IMG/VR virus record: IMGVR_UViG_3300032205_000003
Span: 1-48,725 of that record
Strand: one strand, 5' to 3'
Length of the DNA: 48,725 nt
DNA from: a virus
Numbering within the stretch: the first letter of the stretch is position 1; every line of letters begins with the position of its first letter. A model generated the notes under the pieces. The model searched no databases. It saw only the letters and a program-made list of their open reading frames with translations, and was not told the origin of the DNA. Shown here one piece after another: positions 8,669-42,200 of the stretch. The position numbers and the translations under genes were made by a program.

Positions 8669-9042
8669 GCCTCTTCCTCCTCGTATCCCTCGCCCGTCCA
8701 GCCGTGGCGCGCTGCGGCCTTGGGCGAGTGCTCGTAGTAGAAGGCGAGCGCGCGCTGCTTCGCCTCGCGCCGGGTGTCGCAGGTGTCGACGCGGACGCGC
8801 TCCCAACGCTCCGCCTTGCCCGAGCGCGAGCCGCGCCCACGCGGCTCGTACACGAATACGGCGAACGTGCCGTCGAGCTTGCCCGCCCGGATCCGCTTCG
8901 TGGTGTAGCTCACGAGCCAGCCGTCCTCGGTCTTCCAGTCGCAGGTCGGCGCCAGGCCGTCGGGCGAGAACGCGGCTGCGTACTGCTCGTCGGTCATGGT
9001 CTGCGCCATGTGCTTCATGAATCTGTCCCAGTGCTCGCTCAT
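8665..9042 (-). CDS. Hypothetical protein, 125 aa
   Basis: The ATG at 9042 (MSEHWDRFMKHMAQ) overlaps the MerR-like stop. The mixed alpha/beta sequence has an aromatic-rich C-terminal helix (QRALAFYYEHSPKAA) and an acidic tip. Segments such as LVSYTTKRIRAGKLDGTFAV and WERVRVDTCDTRREA alternate strand and turn. No metal-binding or catalytic motif stands out. Function unknown. Confidence 0.7.
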   Translation of the reverse strand: MSEHWDRFMKHMAQTMTDEQYAAAFSPDGLAPTCDWKTEDGWLVSYTTKRIRAGKLDGTFAVFVYEPRGRGSRSGKAERWERVRVDTCDTRREAKQRALAFYYEHSPKAAARHGWTGEGYEEEEA

Positions 9043-9314
9043 GCTGCCTTCCTCTCCGCTGCCCAGCGCTCGATGTCCTGGCGCAGCCACACGGTCGCGC
9101 CGCGAAGCTCGGCCACGGGGGCCGGCAGCTTGCCGCGGTGCTTCCACATCGTCACGGTCTTGTAGGCCACGTCCATGAACTCGGCCACTTCGTACATGCC
9201 CATCAGTTGCAGTCGGCCGGCGTGGACTTCCTCCACGAGGCGCGCGTACCACTCCGCGCACTCGTCCATCTCGGTGCGGATCCGCTGCATGCGGTCGAGT
9301 ACCTCGCCGGTCAC
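9039..9314 (-). CDS. MerR-like HTH protein, 91 aa
   Basis: Residues about 38-84 form an excisionase/MerR-type HTH: MGMYEVAEFMDVAYKTVTMW, then KHRGKLPAPVAELRGATVW and LRQDIERWAAERK, the usual pattern of an HTH plus wing plus final helix. A 35-residue helical N-terminus precedes it. The GTG at 9314 overlaps the preceding stop (GTGA). It could be a second directionality factor or a regulator of this operon. Confidence 0.75.
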   Translation of the reverse strand: MTGEVLDRMQRIRTEMDECAEWYARLVEEVHAGRLQLMGMYEVAEFMDVAYKTVTMWKHRGKLPAPVAELRGATVWLRQDIERWAAERKAA

Positions 9315-9547
9315 TTGCCATCAATCCCTCGGGGCGGCGGCATGTGCCGCTCGTGCTTGAAGTAGTTCAGCCAGCTGCCGCCGACGACGGCGAGCAGCAG
9401 CACGGCGAAGAAGGCGGGGATCAGGTAGATCAGGCCGCCCCAGCCGAACAGCAGGTAGACGCCGACGAACAGCGCCGGCACCCAGATCGCGCCGAACGCG
9501 CTGAGCGCCGCTCGTCCGGGCGACATCCCGAACAGTCTCTGACTCAT
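9311..9547 (-). CDS. Small membrane protein with two TM segments, 78 aa
   Basis: Two hydrophobic stretches are visible: about residues 14-34 (SAFGAIWVPALFVGVYLLFG) and 37-58 (GLIYLIPAFFAVLLLAVVGG), joined by a two-residue turn. A basic C-terminal tail (KHERHMPPPRG) follows. This hairpin topology is found in holins and superinfection-exclusion proteins. It is not next to an endolysin, so exclusion or another host-membrane role is at least as likely. Starts ATG at 9547, overlapping the upstream stop. Confidence 0.75.
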   Translation of the reverse strand: MSQRLFGMSPGRAALSAFGAIWVPALFVGVYLLFGWGGLIYLIPAFFAVLLLAVVGGSWLNYFKHERHMPPPRGIDGK

Positions 9548-9744
9548 GACGCATCCCTCCGCTCGGCCACGAGGTTGGTGGTGCAGGCGTCGTAGAACCG
9601 CTCCTCGTCAAAGCGAGGGTTCTCGTGGCGCAGCCGGGCGATGAAGCTCTCGGCGAGCCGATCGCGCAGCAGGCCGCCGTCCTCTCGATCGCGGGCGTAG
9701 CCGTTCACAACCGCGGCGATCAACTCGAAGTCCTTCCTGGTCAT
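9544..9744 (-). CDS. Hypothetical protein, 66 aa
   Basis: ATG at 9744 is preceded by AAGGAGGATGGA; an in-frame ATG ten codons earlier lies in the conserved leader and would encode MLHHHH from the CAC repeat, so it is rejected. The helical charged protein begins MTRKDFELIAAVVNGYARDR and contains one cysteine. No family is recognised. It is the first gene after leader copy A. Confidence 0.7.
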   Translation of the reverse strand: MTRKDFELIAAVVNGYARDREDGGLLRDRLAESFIARLRHENPRFDEERFYDACTTNLVAERRDAS

Positions 9745-9749
9745 TCCAT

Positions 9750-9819
9750 CCTCCTTGTGGTGGTGGTGAAGCACTGGCGCTTCGAGGGGCGCCGGCCGAG
9801 CCGGCGCCCGTGCGAAACG
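9750..9819 (-). promoter_or_regulatory. Two-hairpin intercistronic leader, copy A
   Basis: In mRNA order: the upstream stop, CGTTTCGCAC, a hairpin with a 10-bp stem (GGGCGCCGGC / GCCGGCGCCC, 9787-9809), a second hairpin GAAGC-6-GCTTC (9768-9783), then CACCACCACCAC and AAGGAGG. The same architecture is found at 10141-10217 and 10806-10879. The outer pair of the first stem is G:C here and A:T in the other copies, a compensatory change. Confidence 0.75.
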
Positions 9820-10005
9820 TCACTGCGCTGCGAAGCCCTCCTGGATCAACGCGGTCACGAGCGAGTCGACGTACCGCGGCTCGACCACGAGCGCCATGCC
9901 GAACCACTGCGCGTCCTCCTGGGCGTGCCCGCGCAACCAGGCGAGCACGTCCATCGTGTGAGGCTCGATCAGGACGACCGAGCCGTGGTCGTTGACGCTG
10001 AACAT
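9820..10005 (-). CDS. Hypothetical protein, 61 aa
   Basis: ATG at 10005 shares a base with the previous stop (TGATG). The sequence has alternating strands and helices (MFSVNDHGSVVLIEPHTMDV, MALVVEPRYVDSLVTALIQE) like a small alpha/beta fold, without cysteines or membrane segments. Its stop is followed directly by leader copy A. Function unknown. Confidence 0.65.
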   Translation of the reverse strand: MFSVNDHGSVVLIEPHTMDVLAWLRGHAQEDAQWFGMALVVEPRYVDSLVTALIQEGFAAQ

Positions 10006-10133
10006 CAGGCCGCCGCCTTCCAGTAGTGCCGCACGAACGCGAAGACGGCTTCGGCGGCGGCGAGCCGCCGGATGGTCTTCGCCTCGGTCGCGTTCGTGGC
10101 GCGCCGCAGGTGTCTTGGTGTTCTCTCGCTCAT
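10005..10133 (-). CDS. 42-residue basic helical protein
   Basis: ATG at 10133 follows AAGGGA, the ribosome site at the end of leader copy B. The product begins MSERTPRHLRRATNATEAKT and continues as an amphipathic Ala/Arg-rich helix ending YWKAAA. The gene fills the space between leader B and the next ATG with a one-base overlap. No family is recognised. Confidence 0.6.
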   Translation of the reverse strand: MSERTPRHLRRATNATEAKTIRRLAAAEAVFAFVRHYWKAAA

Positions 10134-10140
10134 GGCTGTC

Positions 10141-10217
10141 CCTTCGTGGTGGTGGAGTGAAGCCTGGTGCTTCGAGCAGCGCCGGCCGGGAGCCGGCGCT
10201 GGTGCGAAACGTCAGGC
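10141..10217 (-). promoter_or_regulatory. Two-hairpin intercistronic leader, copy B
   Basis: TGACGTTTCGCACC is followed by a 10-bp-stem hairpin (CAGCGCCGGC / GCCGGCGCTG, 10177-10201), then GAAGC-5-GCTTC (10159-10173), then ACTCCACCACCAC and GAAGGGA. It matches copies A and C in order and spacing, with different loops. Confidence 0.75.
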
Positions 10218-10418
10218 CTAGCGGTTGCTCGGCGGGTTGCTGTAGGTGTCGTGCGCAAGCGCGTCGACCTCGGCCGCGTCCTTCGTGTCGCAGTGTCGAC
10301 CGGCCCAGCCGCACGCCTCGCAGGCGGCGAACCAGACGGTCTTCTCGTCCCCTGCGCGCTTGGTGCGCTGCACCTCGGCGAGGTGGTAGTCGAAGCCGGT
10401 CTTGACGGGCATGCTCAT
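10218..10418 (-). CDS. Small protein with CxxC-type motif, 66 aa
   Basis: ATG at 10418 follows GAAGGAG. Cysteines in FAACEACGW and GRHCDTKD give C-x2-C-x6-C with nearby histidines, a possible single zinc site of the kind common in small actinophage proteins. The C-terminus is Asn/Ser/Pro-rich. The upstream gene overlaps by four bases. Function unknown. Confidence 0.7.
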   Translation of the reverse strand: MSMPVKTGFDYHLAEVQRTKRAGDEKTVWFAACEACGWAGRHCDTKDAAEVDALAHDTYSNPPSNR

Positions 10419-10534
10419 GAGATCTCCTTCGTGGTGGTGTGGTTGTCGCGGCGCCGCGCTGCGTACCAGGCGGCGCCGATGGTCAGGGCGATGTAGCTCT
10501 CGACTGCGAGCAGCCCGAGCAGCGAGCCGCTCAT
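10415..10534 (-). CDS. 39-residue single-TM membrane protein
   Basis: ATG at 10534 comes just after the upstream stop, with GGGGAG before it, and the stop overlaps the next gene (ATGA). The sequence starts MSGSLLGLLAVESYIALTIG and continues GAAWYAARRRDN: one hydrophobic helix followed by an Arg cluster, an Nout/Cin topology. Its 3' end doubles as the CACCACCACGAAGGAG leader of the next gene. Confidence 0.6.
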   Translation of the reverse strand: MSGSLLGLLAVESYIALTIGAAWYAARRRDNHTTTKEIS

Positions 10535-10798
10535 CTAGCGCCACTCCCCTTCGTTGTAGACCTCGTAGGTGATGCCGGACACGATGTCCGAGATGTCGAT
10601 CGCCTCGACGCCCTGCCAGGCGGGGTCGTCCAGGAGGATCTGGGTGACGCTCTCGCGCGCCCACTGCTCAAGCTCGAACATCTCGTCCAGGCCGTCCTCG
10701 ACGGCGTCGCGCAGCGCGCTCAGGACGTCGCGCCGGATGCTCTTCTCGTACGCGCGCTCCAGGGCGTTCACCCGCCGCTCGTAGCTCTGCTCGCTCAT
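10535..10798 (-). CDS. Hypothetical helical protein, 87 aa
   Basis: ATG at 10798 follows GAGGAGAGCACC. The N-terminal half is a charged helix (YERRVNALERAYEKSIRRDV) and the C-terminal half is acidic and aromatic (ESVTQILLDDPAWQGVEAID). There are no cysteines or TM segments. It stands alone between leader copy C and the 39-residue membrane protein. Function unknown. Confidence 0.7.
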   Translation of the reverse strand: MSEQSYERRVNALERAYEKSIRRDVLSALRDAVEDGLDEMFELEQWARESVTQILLDDPAWQGVEAIDISDIVSGITYEVYNEGEWR

Positions 10799-10805
10799 GG
10801 TGCTC

Positions 10806-10879
10806 TCCTCGTGGTGGTGGTGGTGAAGCGGACGCTTCGTGAAGCGCCGGCCGGAGCCGGCGCTCGGACGAAGGGTCAG
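10806..10879 (-). promoter_or_regulatory. Two-hairpin intercistronic leader, copy C
   Basis: After the upstream TAG: CTGACCCTTCGTCCG, a 9-bp-stem hairpin (AGCGCCGGC / GCCGGCGCT, 10843-10864), GAAGC-4-GCTTC (10825-10838), then five CAC triplets and GAGGAG. Same architecture as copies A and B. Confidence 0.75.
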
Positions 10880-11359
10880 CTACTTGCAGCAGGGGAAGAC
10901 GCGGACGTCCTCGGGGCCGTAGCCCATCTCGGCCATCTCGCCGTCGACGTAGTCGGCGAGGGCGGCTTCGACGCTCTCGAACGGGCCGTAGATCTGCGAG
11001 CCGTGCTCGCGGGCGTCCCGCTCGATGTCGCGGCAGCCATCGCGGTGGATGTGCGCGATGTGCTCGCGGCTGATCGAGTGGTTGAGGATGACGACCTGCG
11101 GGCCGGCCGGCTCGACCGGGAAGGCGGCGGGGTTGCCGAGCTTGAAGTCAGCCTCGGCCTTCTCCTCCAGCGCGAAGCGAAGCTCGTGGAGCGCCTGCGC
11201 GGCGTCCCAGAGCGCCTTCTGCGCGGCCTTGTTCAGGTCGCTCGCGGTGACGTGCTTGATCATCTCGGCCAGCGTCTCGACCTGCGCCTGTGCGGCCTTC
11301 ACGGCGTGCGCCTCGCGCTTGTGGATCGTGGACACCAGGATGTGCTCGTTCGGGGTCAT
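10880..11359 (-). CDS. Hypothetical protein, first gene of the small-protein operon, 159 aa
   Basis: ATG at 11359 has AGGAGG upstream at good spacing. The N-terminal two thirds are helical and Ala/His/Lys-rich (AQAQVETLAEMIKHVTASDL). The C-terminus has a separate unit with two histidine-rich turns and a Cys (SREHIAHIHRDGCRD) and ends in Cys-Cys-Lys. A metal site is possible but unproven. It is transcribed from the promoter at 11406-11434. Confidence 0.72.
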   Translation of the reverse strand: MTPNEHILVSTIHKREAHAVKAAQAQVETLAEMIKHVTASDLNKAAQKALWDAAQALHELRFALEEKAEADFKLGNPAAFPVEPAGPQVVILNHSISREHIAHIHRDGCRDIERDAREHGSQIYGPFESVEAALADYVDGEMAEMGYGPEDVRVFPCCK

Positions 11360-11364
11360 GCGAT

Positions 11365-11398
11365 GCCTCCTGTGGTGGTGGGCGCGCCGGAGCGGCGC
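11365..11398 (-). promoter_or_regulatory. Leader of the small-protein operon (related copy D)
   Basis: The mRNA leader consists of a short hairpin (GCGCCG-3-CGGCGC, 11384-11398), then CCACCACCAC and AGGAGG. It keeps the hairpin-CAC-SD order of copies A-C but lacks the second GAAGC hairpin. It begins about where the predicted transcript starts. Confidence 0.55.
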
Positions 11399-11405
11399 TG
11401 ATCCC

Positions 11406-11434
11406 ATCTATCGGCACCGCGTTGAAGAAGTCAA
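11406..11434 (-). promoter_or_regulatory. Sigma70-type promoter for the 11359 operon
   Basis: On the minus strand, TTGACT (11434-11429) and ATAGAT (11411-11406) are 17 bases apart; TAGATG with an 18-base spacer is an alternative register. The match is good for a GC-rich genome and leaves a leader of about 40 nt before the ATG at 11359. Divergent transcription of the small terminase may share this region. Confidence 0.65.
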
Positions 11435-11458
11435 CCCTCAGGAGGACGAATCCCCCAA

Positions 11459-12082
11459 ATGGGTCACACGCCGAACGAGCATGAGCTTGAGGTCGAACAG
11501 ACCCTCTCCGAGCAGAGTGGTGATGGAGAAAAGCGGGCTAGCGCCGCAGAGCCTTGCGTCCAGGACGCGAAGCTCGCGCTCCCCGAGGGTCACCGCGTCC
11601 CCGAGGGAGCGACCCTGCTCGAAGGGGAAGACGACGGCTTCTGCCGCGTCCTGAAGCTCGACGGCTCGCGCTGCCGCGCCGCTCGGATCCGTGGGACGCC
11701 GCTCTGCGCCGGCCACACAGGGATCGGCGTGGGGCGTGACCCTCAAGGCAATGCCGTTCTAGCTCGTGAAGCGAAGGCTCGCGTACGAGCACGAAGGGAG
11801 CTACTCGGGATCGGGCCGGCAAGAGTCGCTCAACCACGCCAGATCGCGCGGCTCAAGGCGCAAGAACGCGCCGAAGAAATCGCCGCCGCGCTCGTGATCG
11901 CGCCGCTCGAAGACCCCTCTCTCGGCACCCTCGAACGGCAGCGCGCCGTGGTCACGATGCTCGCCGAGACGTACCCGCTCGCCACCGCCAGCGTGGAGGT
12001 CGAGGTCCCCGCCGCCGGCGAGGTCGGGTCGCTCGGCTGGGCGGACATGCAGGCGCTCGCAGCCAGGCTCTTGGACGCCTGA
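11459..12082 (+). CDS. terS: Probable terminase small subunit, zinc-knuckle type, 207 aa
   Basis: Residues 62-86 carry a C-x7-C-x8-C-x2-H knuckle within CRVLKLDGSRCRAARIRGT and LCAGHTG. This resembles the zinc-binding opening of many actinophage small terminases, where it is followed, as here, by an Arg/Ala-rich helical region. AGGAGG lies 13 bases before the ATG, which is rather long. The large subunit is 8 kb away, which is unusual. An alternative is a DNA-binding regulator. Confidence 0.55.
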   Translation: MGHTPNEHELEVEQTLSEQSGDGEKRASAAEPCVQDAKLALPEGHRVPEGATLLEGEDDGFCRVLKLDGSRCRAARIRGTPLCAGHTGIGVGRDPQGNAVLAREAKARVRARRELLGIGPARVAQPRQIARLKAQERAEEIAAALVIAPLEDPSLGTLERQRAVVTMLAETYPLATASVEVEVPAAGEVGSLGWADMQALAARLLDA

Positions 12083-14969: not shown

Positions 14970-15540
14970 GTCGTCAGTCGACCGCGGGTTCAGCTGGGAG
15001 CAGCTGGCACAGGATATCGCTCATGGTGTCGCTCGCTTCCTGGATGGCAGACGACGGGGCAGGCCCGAGCCGCACAACGGGGGGCCACGGCACCCGATCG
15101 AGTGCGACATCATCGGCGTGATCGGCGAGCGCATCATGAGCGCCTACCTGGGGATTCCCTGGCACCCGATGGTCGCCAAGCCCGGCCTGCTCGAAGGCGA
15201 CGTGGGCGTGCATCAGGTCAGGTCGACCGACGTCCCTCATGGCTGCCTCACGGTCTACGAGGAGAACCCCGACGACGTCCCCTACTGGCTGGTGACGGTC
15301 AACGTGCGCGTCCCCATGGCGTCCATCAAAGGCTGGGCCTGGGGCCACGAGGTGAAGCAGCGGGAGTACTTCCGCACCGACCGCGAGGCGGACGCCTTCT
15401 GGCTGCCTCAGTCCAAGCTGCACGATCCGTCCACCGCCCCTGCTATCGTTCGCGCGCCTCGGGCCGGAGTCGACGGGTTACCTCTGCTAAAGGACAACTC
15501 CCGCCGGCACAACATGACCGAGGCTTGGATCCTAGGATGA
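14950..15540 (+). CDS. Putative nuclease-like phage protein, 196 aa
   Basis: From about residue 52: ECDIIGVIGERIMSAYLGIP, then LLEGDVGVHQVRSTD, then PYWLVTVNVRVPMASIKGW. A helix with GE, a strand with GD and a following Q-V-R strand mimic the PD-(D/E)XK order, with Gln-Val-Arg replacing E-x-K. Related proteins occur in many actinophages without an assigned role. The start may be ATG 14950 or ATG 14968 (GGGAGG just upstream but very close). Its 5' end overlaps the divergent gene. Confidence 0.6.
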   Translation: MSSGRLMSSVDRGFSWEQLAQDIAHGVARFLDGRRRGRPEPHNGGPRHPIECDIIGVIGERIMSAYLGIPWHPMVAKPGLLEGDVGVHQVRSTDVPHGCLTVYEENPDDVPYWLVTVNVRVPMASIKGWAWGHEVKQREYFRTDREADAFWLPQSKLHDPSTAPAIVRAPRAGVDGLPLLKDNSRRHNMTEAWILG

Positions 15541-16473: not shown

Positions 16474-16978
16474 TGCGCTGCTCCTCCGGCATCAGCGCGA
16501 AGTGGACCATAGCCGCGCCCATCTTCCCCTTCTCCCTCGGCCGCCGTCCCAGCAGCCTGATCTGCTGTCGTTCCCGCAGGATGTTTGTGGCGCTGTGAAC
16601 GGTCGTGTGGTGTAGCCCCGTCTCCTTCTCAAGCTCGGGGTTCGAGAAGGTGCGATCGGGATGATCGGTGAAGGCCTTGAGCACGCGGGCGATCGTCTCC
16701 TCCTTCGACCGCGTCTTGATCGCCGGCGACTTCCTCGGCGTCGCCTTCTCGACGTTCTCGGGATGGATCGCTCGCTCGGCCGCGCTGATCACGGCGCGCG
16801 TCCGCATGATCTGCACGGTGTACTGGCGGATCTCCGTCTTCCTCTCAAGGATCATCTCGTTTAGCTCCTTCTCCAGAGCCTCACGCTTCGCCACTAGCTC
16901 GGCGACTTCGTCCTGAAGTGGCTTCAGGATCACCTCAAGTTGGCCCCCGACGCGGGCTGCCAATGTCTTGTCGGTCAT
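16460..16978 (-). CDS. Coiled-coil plus winged-helix DNA-binding protein, 172 aa
   Basis: ATG at 16978 follows AAGGAGGAGG, preceded by ACCAC like the leaders of the 11359 operon. Residues about 10-65 are a long charged coiled coil (LVAKREALEKELNEMILERK); residues 95-150 form a winged HTH (RTFSNPELEKETGLHHTTVH, SATNILRERQQIRLLGRRP). Probably a dimeric regulator. Transcribed divergently from the late gene at 17043, so it could control late expression. Confidence 0.72.
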   Translation of the reverse strand: MTDKTLAARVGGQLEVILKPLQDEVAELVAKREALEKELNEMILERKTEIRQYTVQIMRTRAVISAAERAIHPENVEKATPRKSPAIKTRSKEETIARVLKAFTDHPDRTFSNPELEKETGLHHTTVHSATNILRERQQIRLLGRRPREKGKMGAAMVHFALMPEEQRNGDE

Positions 16979-39200: not shown

Positions 39201-42200
39201 GAAGAACACGCTGCGGCTTCCGCTCGAATCCATGACGGCGGACAAGCCGTTCCTGCAGGACCTCACACCGGGGCAGTTGGCCGCTCACACCTCCGAGTAC
39301 GGCAACGCCACCCTTCGCGTCCTCCATGACGAGGGGTTCGTCGTCCGTCACGACGCCGGCGGGTTCGGGTTCTGGCGCGACCCCGCCACGGGGGAGATCG
39401 AGCGCAACCCCGCGACCGCCGTCGAGGTGGCGCTCGGCGACCGTCCCGTGACACGGATGCGGGGCAAGGAGGTCGCCCAGCAGGCTGCACGCGGTCTGTA
39501 CCTGAGCGTCCCGCAGTCGGTGCGCGAACTGGCGCAAGGTCTGTCGGCGGCGCTCGGCGACGCGGCCAAGCAGCACCAGGCCGCCTGGGCGCGCTACCTG
39601 AACCCGCGCGGTCAGGCCAGCGACGTCACCGCCTGGCGGATCGAGCTTGGCCGGCCGCTCGCCGACGCCGAGTCGGAGGCTCTCAACGACGCCCTCCACG
39701 GCGACTTCCACTTCACACCCTCGGAAGACGGCGGGATCATCGCCTTCAACACGCCCGACGCCGTCCTCGATCGCTCCGTCAGGGTCGAGAACATGGGGCA
39801 GCGGGGGCTGAAGGCCGAAGCTCGGCAGGAGCGGCGCGCTCTCACCAACCTCGCTAACGAGCGGCGCGCCCACGTCGATAACGCAATTGGGGCCGTCTGG
39901 CCTGGCGACGACGAGATTACACTTACCGAGCTAGCTCACCGTGGAGGTCTTCTAGACCGTGGCGATTATCAAGAGGCAATTTCCGCAGGACGACGATCCG
40001 ATCTTTACCAACGAGTTCGTGATCGGCTTTCCGGCGCGTACGAAGAGATCGACGGGCACTTCATCGCAGACCCCGTCGCCGCTGCCGCCCGAGCCGAGCA
40101 GCACCCCGGCTCCCTCTCCCTCGGAACCGCGGGGGGAGACGTTGCCCGACTCGACCAGCTGAACCAGGCGCGCCGGGGCGACATTCTCGGCGCCGTCCGC
40201 TTCCTCTCCGGCACCGACGAGGGGAAGCGGATCGTCTACCTCACCAGCAAGGCTGACTTCTCGACCTGGGTCCACGAGATGGTGGGACACGCCGCCCGTG
40301 AGATGAAGCAGATGGAGCCGGGCGAGTTCGCCGCCGTCGAGCACCTGCGCGGCAAGGCGCTGGAAGACTGGAACGTCACCGACCACGAGTGGTTCGCCTC
40401 GCAGGTGGAGCGCTGGTTCTACGCCGGCAAGGCGCCGACCCCCGAGCTTGTGCCCGTGTTCGAGCGCGTCCGCACCTACATGCGGACGATCTACGCGGCC
40501 GTCAAGAGCATCATCAAGGAACCGATCCCGGCCGAGATGAAGCGCCTCCTCGACACGTACTTCGGCGGCTACGACGACGTCAACGTCGACCGCATCGCCG
40601 GGTTCATGCCCAGGGAGACGGCTCGCGAGCAGCGCGTCTCGCACGGCGCCGCAGCCGCGCGCGAGGAGCTTGCCGCCTACCGCTCGCGCCAGGCCAAGCT
40701 CAAGCACGCCCGCTCGATCGAGGGCATGCAGGAGCGGCTCACCGCGATCCGCGACAAGGGCGACGACGCGACCCAGGAGGAACTGGACGAGGCGACGCAG
40801 ATGACCGCCACCCTTCTCGCCCGCGTGGCCGAGCGCGAGATGCGCCGCGACACGCGGGAGAAGGCGCTCACCCAGAAGATCAGCGAGGTCAAGAACGCGC
40901 TCGACAAGGGGGTCGACCATCCCCAGTTCCAGAACGCCCTCAACGCCATGCGCTGGATCGCGGACGACCGCGAGCGGATCCTGCGCGAGGTGTTCGGCGA
41001 CCGCTACGACGAGACGTTCCGGAACCGCAAGGATCTGCTGGCCGACTTCCTCGTGGAGCGGGGGCTGCTCAGGGCCAACTTCGTCCGGGGTAGCGCCCAC
41101 TACTTCCCGGCCACGCTGGACGAGCCGTACGACGTGCGGGTGAAGCAGCCGGCGGCGCCGCTCACGAGCAACGTGATCGGCCAGACGAAGGCGTCGCAGC
41201 TGGTGCTGCACAAGCGCAACCAGATGATCCTCTGGCAGCGGGGCGACTGGACGGCCGATCCGCAGGTGCTGCTCGACGCGCACGCTCGCGCTCAGGCCTA
41301 CGCCTGGTCGAACGAGGTGAAGAAGACCCTGTTCGAACTGGGCCGCCCGATCACGCTGGAGGAGTACGAGAACCCCCGCCTGCTCAAGGGTCAGGGCTAC
41401 CTCGTCAACCCGCGCGGCACCCCGGTCGGCACCGACATGCGGGCGGCGATCAACAACAAGACCGTCACGCACAACGTGCAGAAGTTCCACGACGGCGGCG
41501 AGGGCGGCGACCCCTCTGCGCTCGAAGCCTCGCTCGTGAATTACTGGCGCAACTTTCTCGGCGACGCCGACGCGCAGCTGCCCGAGGGCTTCCTGATGAG
41601 CGACGTCCGGGTCGTTCCCCGCGAGATCGTGGAGTCGATGCTCCGGCCGCTGTCGGGCACGAGCACGAAGTTCGGCCGGCGCTGGGACTACGCCACCACG
41701 GCGGCTCGCTGGGCGACGATGTACGCCAACGTCCCCGGCTACATGATCGCCAACGGGGTCGGCTCGATCGGGTTCCTGCTCGCCCAGTACGGCTGGCGCG
41801 CCGACCGCATCGTGCGGGACGCGAAGACGCTGCTCGGCAACGAGAAGCTCTACCACCGCGTGCTCGCGGAGATCGGCGAGCTTCCCTACCAGGCGATGCG
41901 AAAGACCGGCTACGGGCTGAACGCTCGCTTCACCGACGCCGAGCAGGCGGCGCTGCATTTCGTGGGCACGGCCGACCGCTGGCCACGCGCCGTTTCCTGG
42001 GTCCACGAGGCGCGCAAGGCCGGCTACAACACCGAAGAGGACATGCTGCGGCTGGTCGCCGGCAAGACCGCGAAGACGCAGCGCGACCGCGATCTCGTCG
42101 CTCAGTCGACGGCCAACTTCATGGTGGACTTCGAGCGGCTCACCGCCTTCGAGCGCCAGGTCGTGACCCGCGTCTTCTTCGTGTGGCCCTGGATCCGGGG

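Follow-up and report, generated by a model that had tools for sequence, protein, structure and literature searches.

The early operon and its leaders

The window analyzed here, from a soil phage, is a whole IMG/VR virus record (IMGVR_UViG_3300032205_000003) of 48,725 bases, with a GC content of 65-70%, that encodes podovirus-like portal and head genes as well as an integrase. Its minus-strand operon of small (early) genes contains leaders in the gaps between cistrons, and these, together with their counterparts in related phages, are intercistronic RNA modules that run from the upstream stop codon through a hairpin, a putative cut site and a Shine-Dalgarno (SD) sequence to the start codon. From the sequence comparisons below we think it on balance probable, by a small measure, that such gaps are trans-cleavage sites of one hammerhead-like ribozyme at the operon head, which would split the early mRNA into single-gene units. 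The leaders of the window and the one related site that lies inside an open reading frame (ORF) are as follows (aa, amino acids).

9745-9822, minus strand: leader 1, before the 66-aa gene at 9544-9744; upstream stop TGA at 9822-9820; stem 1 at 9809-9800 with 9796-9787; GAAGC at 9783-9779 and GCTTC at 9772-9768; potential site CTC^GAAGC at 9786-9784/9783; CAC repeat, then SD AAGGAGG at 9756-9750.
10134-10220, minus strand: leader 2, before the 42-aa gene at 10005-10133; upstream stop TAG at 10220-10218; stem 1 at 10200-10192 with 10186-10178; GCTTC at 10163-10159; potential site CTC^GAAGC at 10176-10174/10173; CAC repeat, then weak SD GAAGGGA at 10145-10139.
10799-10882, minus strand: leader 3, before the 87-aa gene at 10535-10798; upstream stop TAG at 10882-10880; stem 1 at 10864-10856 with 10851-10843; GCTTC at 10829-10825; potential site CAC^GAAGC at 10841-10839/10838; CAC repeat, then SD GAGGAG at 10810-10805.
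11360-11400, minus strand: leader 4, before the first gene of the operon at 10880-11359; single hairpin of GCGCCG at 11398-11393 and CGGCGC at 11389-11384; CACCACCAC at 11380-11372, then AGGAGG at 11371-11366.
10415-10534, minus strand: 39-codon ORF (...HTTTKEIS), including a fifth CACCACCAC (10439-10431) and AAGGAG; sequence read directly.

The initial annotation had proposed that three gaps share one plan, and this repeat is real and far above chance: a BLAST query with the 10800-10885 copy matches 9749-9822 (80% identity, E = 6e-13) and 10144-10215 (81%, E = 7e-12) and has no further match anywhere in the record, the copies being 80-81% identical over about 73 nucleotides (nt). The strong stem 1 that it described is present in all three (GGGCGCCGGC/GCCGGCGCCC, AGCGCCGGC/GCCGGCGCT and again AGCGCCGGC/GCCGGCGCT), with an outer pair that is G:C in one copy and A:T in two, and GAAGC and GCTTC do bracket loops of different sequence (GCCAGT, ACCAG and GTCC, of 6, 5 and 4 nt). 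The tail of CAC repeats and an SD-like sequence occurs in every copy, but as AAGGAGG and GAGGAG in only two of them, the third having the weaker GAAGGGA, and the TGAC-TTTCG-AC block at the upstream stop is exact in two copies, while the third reads TGACCCTTCGTCC.

Other parts of that description need amendment. Two hairpins per copy can be paired, but when folded alone each copy favors a single extended hairpin: CGAAGC and the presumed loop 2 are taken up in pairs with the TTTCG/CTTCG flank that lies upstream, and imposing the second hairpin carries a penalty of 3.6-7.9 kcal/mol across the three copies. Genuine two-hairpin leaders exist in two relatives, L115 and L116. The further leader proposed at 11365-11398 does have the CACCACCAC-AGGAG tail, and it also bears a hairpin of its own, GCGCCG-CTC-CGGCGC, that had gone unmentioned. 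At 10419-10435, also proposed as a leader, CACCACCAC (10419-10439) and AAGGAG are present, but within the 39-codon ORF, whose stop overlaps the next start (ATGA) and whose coding sequence is overlapped by a GC-rich inverted repeat; this fifth site is not a clean leader.

No Rfam family covers the window leaders by covariance-model match. Pattern searches of IMG/VR for the window's stem or its hairpin 2-CAC tail gave no relatives, only unrelated coding matches; the CACCACCAC-SD pattern is unspecific, and among the matches listed no stretch has two of them. A blastn comparison of the window with phage records returned nothing.

Leaders in related phages

Relatives were collected with the portal protein as query (50 IMG/VR contigs, 61-77% identity), and an alignment of the early nuclease added more early regions; as a lone query protein the nuclease recovered none. 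All relatives are metagenomic, and the phage is a member of a large uncultivated podovirus-like group, whose portal is matched by isolates at about 25% or less. As to the host, a portal search of genome contigs gave one spurious 30-residue match in Arthrobacter, and neither a WhiB gene nor a prophage was found.

Short repeats just upstream of gene starts, here called tags, occur in nine of the first ten relatives whose early region was present and in seven relatives from the second search (L103, L106, L107, L110, L112, L115 and L116). Across the 16 related phages, a hairpin, a phage-specific tag, an SD sequence and a start follow one another in nearly all early gaps between cistrons. The tag varies by phage or subgroup (CTCGGTCAACCAAC, CTCGATCACTC, CTCAGTCATCC, GTCTTCCCAACC, CACGGTCA and CCAGGC...CACCCACGAAGGAG) and follows the genome rather than the gene, in that homologous genes in differently tagged phages bear the resident tag and a different stem. 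Tags run one way, lie in the early region and stand, nearly all of them, before an SD sequence and a start, TTG starts included. The contig fragment L105 has a few weaker leaders, and no head RNA (see below) was found on that fragment.

The hairpin that precedes each tag either covers the stop codon of the gene upstream, in many cases with the stop in its loop, or comes shortly after it. Among 147 leaders from 17 phages, including the window, 94% contain a helix of 5 or more base pairs (bp) that ends, on its 3' side, at most 8 nt from the tag (35% in dinucleotide shuffles), and helices of at least 6 bp occur in 85% of leaders as against 41% of the structural-gene starts of the same phage group. 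The stems are free in sequence, with 108 distinct 5' arms among 138, and yet pairing is kept: within phages it is 18.6 for a leader's own arms and 10.8 for swapped arms (p = 7e-48). UNCG (13) and GNRA (20) together make up 33 of 80 tetraloops. The distance from hairpin to tag is tight (standard deviation 1.7 nt) and that from tag to SD loose (4.4 nt).

The initial annotation took the conserved structure to mark a functional RNA. That conclusion is strongly supported by these relatives, but not by what it had leaned on, loops that change among three copies nearly identical to one another; and where unconserved gaps in homologous phages had been named as the outcome that would tell against it, the relatives show the reverse.

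A conserved RNA at the operon head

Tagged relatives have a conserved element of about 130 nt just upstream of the first operon gene, the head RNA. Its parts, in order, are a 5' arm, CUGANGA, helices A, B and C, GAAN, a hairpin, N-H-H and a tag. As read from the sequence, this order corresponds to a type I hammerhead whose stem I is open and whose stem III is the hairpin preceding the tag; the predicted cut falls between H17 and the tag.

RNAalifold predicts 25 pairs, of which 18 show two-sided changes. Over 16 elements 98.2% of cells in the helices are paired, with 58 two-sided changes as against 17 in shuffles, and slid controls collapse. The CUGANGA...GAAN core is present in all 16, mostly with GAAA, with GAAU in L103 and L106 and GAAG in L115 and L116. 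Helix C abuts GAAN and begins with G-C in 16 of 16 elements; helices A and B separate A9 from that pair. The arm complements the tag (TTGACC/GGTCAA, TTGATC/GATCAA, TTGACT/AGTCA, GTGGAA/TTCC, AGCCT/AGGC), and stem I, in which the 5' arm pairs with what follows the predicted cut, shows compensatory arm and tag changes across six types; these counts were taken apart from the MAFFT alignment, where the tag of some rows is shifted by 2-3 columns.

A strict scan for CUGANGA, three contiguous helices and GAAN over 4.03 Mb, both strands, returned only operon-head elements. A covariance model built from the head elements matches in 19 of 41 records (E = 9e-7 to 1e-19), scoring true head elements at 33.6-86 bits and recovering those of L106 and L115, two phages that were not used to build it. 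In the untagged relatives G032 and L119-L122 neither the strict scan nor the covariance model finds a head RNA; weak model matches in G066 and G067 look like chance. The head RNA has no Rfam hammerhead match at the gathering score or at E up to 1, and its pattern is absent from 396 genomes of Arthrobacter's phylum.

Gap tags as putative substrates

Hammerhead cleavage follows N-U-H, where H is not G (PMC6412130), and A15.1-U16.1 is the most conserved hammerhead pair (PMC3088659). Over 127 gap sites, a count that leaves out each head's cis site where identified, position 17 is C in 116, T in 10, A in one and G in none; a count of 124 sites also has no G. Position 16.1 is Watson-Crick with 15.1 of the same phage's head RNA in 127 of 127 gap sites, as against 50% with RNAs of other types. 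All 127 form at least six of seven tested pairs with their own RNA, the mean with other types being 3.2. Gap tags co-vary with the head RNA at stem I, at 15.1-16.1 and at 15.2-16.2.

Three compensatory states of 15.1-16.1 are found, A-U, U-A and G-C. Two phages, L103 and L106, have C-A-H instead of C-U-H; for these U15.1 (GAAU) was predicted in writing before looking and was found in both, the L106 ribozyme candidate being located at the far end of its contig. L115 and L116, with U-C-C^AGGC gaps and GAAG, supply the third state, G15.1-C16.1. Of the functions that the initial annotation had offered, a processing element is the one favored by this evidence, but in a form that differs from any it proposed, with tags matched to the hammerhead-like head RNA.

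Proposed trans-cleavage by the head RNA and competing explanations

In the mechanism that we propose, the head RNA would cleave itself and so release a fragment whose arm is freed of its stem I partner. This fragment could then pair, over 4-7 bp, with each downstream tag and swap its own 16.2-16.1-17 end for that of the substrate, only 16.1 and 16.2 being exchanged, while the gap hairpin beside the tag would substitute for stem III. The early mRNA would be cut just before each SD into single-gene mRNAs, each ending 3' in a hairpin and having its SD close to the newly made 5' end; where a second hairpin includes the tag, as in L115 and L116, it could help product release. Such a mechanism would account for the tight hairpin-tag and loose tag-SD distances, the free stem sequence and the rules at core positions.

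A type I hammerhead leaves a 2',3'-cyclic phosphate on the ribozyme fragment. Because the cyclic phosphate stays there, self-ligation to genes with a 5'-OH, that is, leader trans-splicing, would be possible. To the broader proposal, that podovirus-like uncultivated phages bear a natural trans-acting, multi-site hammerhead-like ribozyme, possibly with leader trans-splicing, and that the window kept its sites after losing the ribozyme, we give an even chance.

Several points weigh against trans-cleavage. Catalysis by the head RNA is something we infer from its sequence. In UUCC-type phages just four pairs of stem I are unbroken, the putative G10.1 is separated from A9 by helices A and B, an insertion that textbook hammerheads do not have, and 15.1-16.1 varies here though it is normally the most conserved hammerhead pair (PMC3088659). 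The gap sites are not independent, there being only six arm/core types, and cofolding of one ribozyme with its gap leaders allows stem I pairing but does not decide the matter. The gap hairpins must also give up 16.1-16.2 to the enzyme by strand exchange, a step for which we know of no precedent. In the window itself, a full-sensitivity search of the whole record finds no head RNA (best score 16 bits), the possible triplets CUC, CUC and CAC disagree at 16.1 (U, U and A), and taken individually the five leaders do no better than their shuffles. Pairing in the window is supported by the shared repeat and by the relatives.

The head RNA might instead work as an antisense or scaffold RNA that binds the tags in trans and controls translation of the early genes jointly without cutting them, its hammerhead core acting only in cis. 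The complementarity of arm and tag lies within about 20 nt of the SD, as such control would have it, cleavage is the inferred part of our proposal, and a natural multi-target trans hammerhead was not found in the open-licence papers searched. Plain antisense pairing, though, needs neither a match at 16.1-15.1 or 16.2-15.2 nor a G-free H17, and does not require a fixed distance from hairpin to tag, and we consider this explanation unlikely. An antisense RNA fully complementary to the tag had seemed unlikely from the tag census, and the head RNA arm found later is shorter, at 5-7 nt.

Distinctly unlikely, in our view, is that the leaders are hairpin-insulated translation starts with no trans factor, the hairpin separating the cistrons and freeing the SD and the tag serving as an unstructured standby site or enhancer. 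The G-poor spacer (11% G, 43% C) agrees with this, shuffling of the hairpin region slightly lowers SD accessibility (0.472 to 0.441, p = 4e-5), and the idea suits the window, which is without a ribozyme. Random replacement of tag and spacer, on the other hand, leaves SD accessibility undiminished, and the constancy of the tag within a phage, its change between phages and its match to the head RNA are left unexplained.

Another possibility, quite improbable, is that the leaders of the window arose recently by duplication of a single leader, or are recombination linkers, and have simply been inherited, with no current function beyond the SD. The three copies do share the sequence of stem 1, unlike the variable stems of the relatives, and the record holds no enzyme partner. 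Yet ahead of the homologous gene G010, L110 and L116 carry a hairpin leader in the same gap, and the outer pair of stem 1 has gone from G:C to A:T with pairing kept.

DNA sites at which a phage repressor halts transcription, like the stoperators of Cluster A mycobacteriophages, would also be in a single orientation, in an early region, lineage-specific through co-evolution with the repressor, and at home in a temperate phage with an integrase (PMC6550527); we hold this highly improbable for tags that nearly all stand before an SD and start, TTG included, next to helices kept at the RNA level with swap-tested pairing and many UNCG or GNRA loops, and whose complementarity to the head RNA it does not explain. 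Intrinsic terminators overcome by antitermination, which the GC-rich hairpins directly after stop codons might suggest, are excluded because the U-tract is missing (none of 138 hairpins has at least five T in the 8 nt after it), and no terminator-like site was called at the leaders.

The window without a partner RNA

In the relatives the head RNA lies beside a divergent gene whose ortholog fixes the corresponding position in the window.

11360-11458, minus strand: empty ribozyme slot, some 100 nt long, separating the divergent gene from the first gene of the operon, at the position of the head RNA in relatives.
11459-12082, plus strand: divergent 207-aa gene, ortholog (37-59% identity) of the gene adjoining the head RNA in relatives.

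This syntenic slot is empty of head RNA. A candidate ribozyme elsewhere, at 41593 on the plus strand (arm GCTTC-CTGATGA, GAAG at +74), was rejected: it lies inside a large structural ORF, fails the scan for helices A, B and C, and misfits at 15.1. Upstream of the first operon gene, at 11405-11434 on the minus strand, is a promoter-like TTGACT - about 17 nt - GATAGAT, which fails a consensus scan.

The window leaders are nearest to the two-hairpin type of L115 and L116, with stem 1, C-U/A-C, GAAGC...GCTTC, a CAC tail and an SD. Comparison makes a fairly strong case for counting them among these intercistronic RNA modules: G010, L110 and L116 have such a module in the corresponding gap, upstream of their homolog of the 87-aa gene (that of leader 3). 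The case for their being cut today is weak because no enzyme is detectable in the record. The window thus has the module without a detectable enzyme, which has been lost or replaced or lies outside the linear record; the modules there have probably been retained as ribosome-binding sites insulated by hairpins, or work with a partner that the record does not include. Their function may be processing or insulated translation.

Comparison with known systems

Hammerheads are known in phages in cis, and the type I hammerheads of phage and bacterial intergenic regions (for example PaP3 and Bcep176; PMC3088659) share with the relatives' head RNA the CUGANGA and GAAN core, stems I and III, the N-H-H triplet and an open stem I. 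The head RNA differs from them in its extra helices A and B, in a 15.1-16.1 pair that may be A-U, U-A or G-C, in the copies of its tag before many genes and in matching no Rfam family; the window has no such RNA.

The nearest described repeats are the SAS/ESAS of Cluster K mycobacteriophages (PMC3203893), likewise short, one-way conserved sequences before many non-structural gene starts, some with an inverted repeat just upstream and with a sequence that differs between subgroups. The SAS, a 13-bp consensus (GGGATAGGAGCCC), constitutes the SD, and the sequence of its inverted repeats is conserved; the tags here, in contrast, differ in sequence, lie 5' of the SD between it and the hairpin, and match the head RNA, and the stems of the relatives vary freely. 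Cluster A stoperators (PMC6550527) resemble the tags as numerous one-way, lineage-specific sites thought to co-evolve with a trans factor, but they are DNA sites for a repressor, are not tied to hairpins or starts, and occur also at promoters and away from starts.

Among hammerheads whose strands are separated, the discontinuous hammerhead in the 3' untranslated regions of mammalian Clec2 mRNAs (PMC6155905) has its strands far apart in one mRNA; each enzyme there has one cis substrate, whereas the single enzyme proposed here would have to serve about 4-15 scattered sites. Engineered trans-cleaving hammerheads (PMC6412130) recognize a target beside N-U-H with their arms, as proposed here, but are artificial, and natural hammerheads are described as mostly self-cleaving (PMC6412130).

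We know of no natural multi-target trans-cleaving hammerhead. The failure to find a natural trans-acting, multi-site one in the open-licence papers searched is no proof of novelty. The parts, a hammerhead core and start-associated repeats, are of known kinds; the novelty would lie in the system that they form here. If the proposal is correct, these phages have a protein-free system of mRNA processing, in which the arm and core of a phage RNA co-evolve with a tag before every early gene, and it becomes directly testable whether small ribozymes naturally act in trans, a long-standing question. It would also offer a candidate logic for the unexplained start-associated repeats of other phages, and the window would be a case of leaders that remain after the ribozyme is gone.

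Other observations

The 61-aa gene before leader 1 (MFSVNDHGSVVLIEPHT..., 9820-10005) is among the best-conserved early genes, with 59-69% identity in five relatives. A gene of the same operon at 9039-9314 on the minus strand, which has no hairpin leader, matches excisionase/helix-turn-helix families (phrog_597, phrog_66) and has orthologs in many relatives. The isolated Rfam match at 15455-15524 on the plus strand (RF01656, a nematode small RNA) is barely over threshold and very likely due to chance.

Among the relatives, G030 has an extra hairpin with ACGGTCACTCACC and AAGGAG outside the early operon (L069:4780-4880), a possible additional target. The distant L127 and L128, which are related through the nuclease only and have a GC content of 53%, repeat AACGCAAGG before three to four gene starts, perhaps as another start-associated tag system. 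L113:13071-13172 (G050) matches the Rfam EGFOA RNA (RF02955, E = 4e-4), and L107 has a tRNA gene at 16734-16804.

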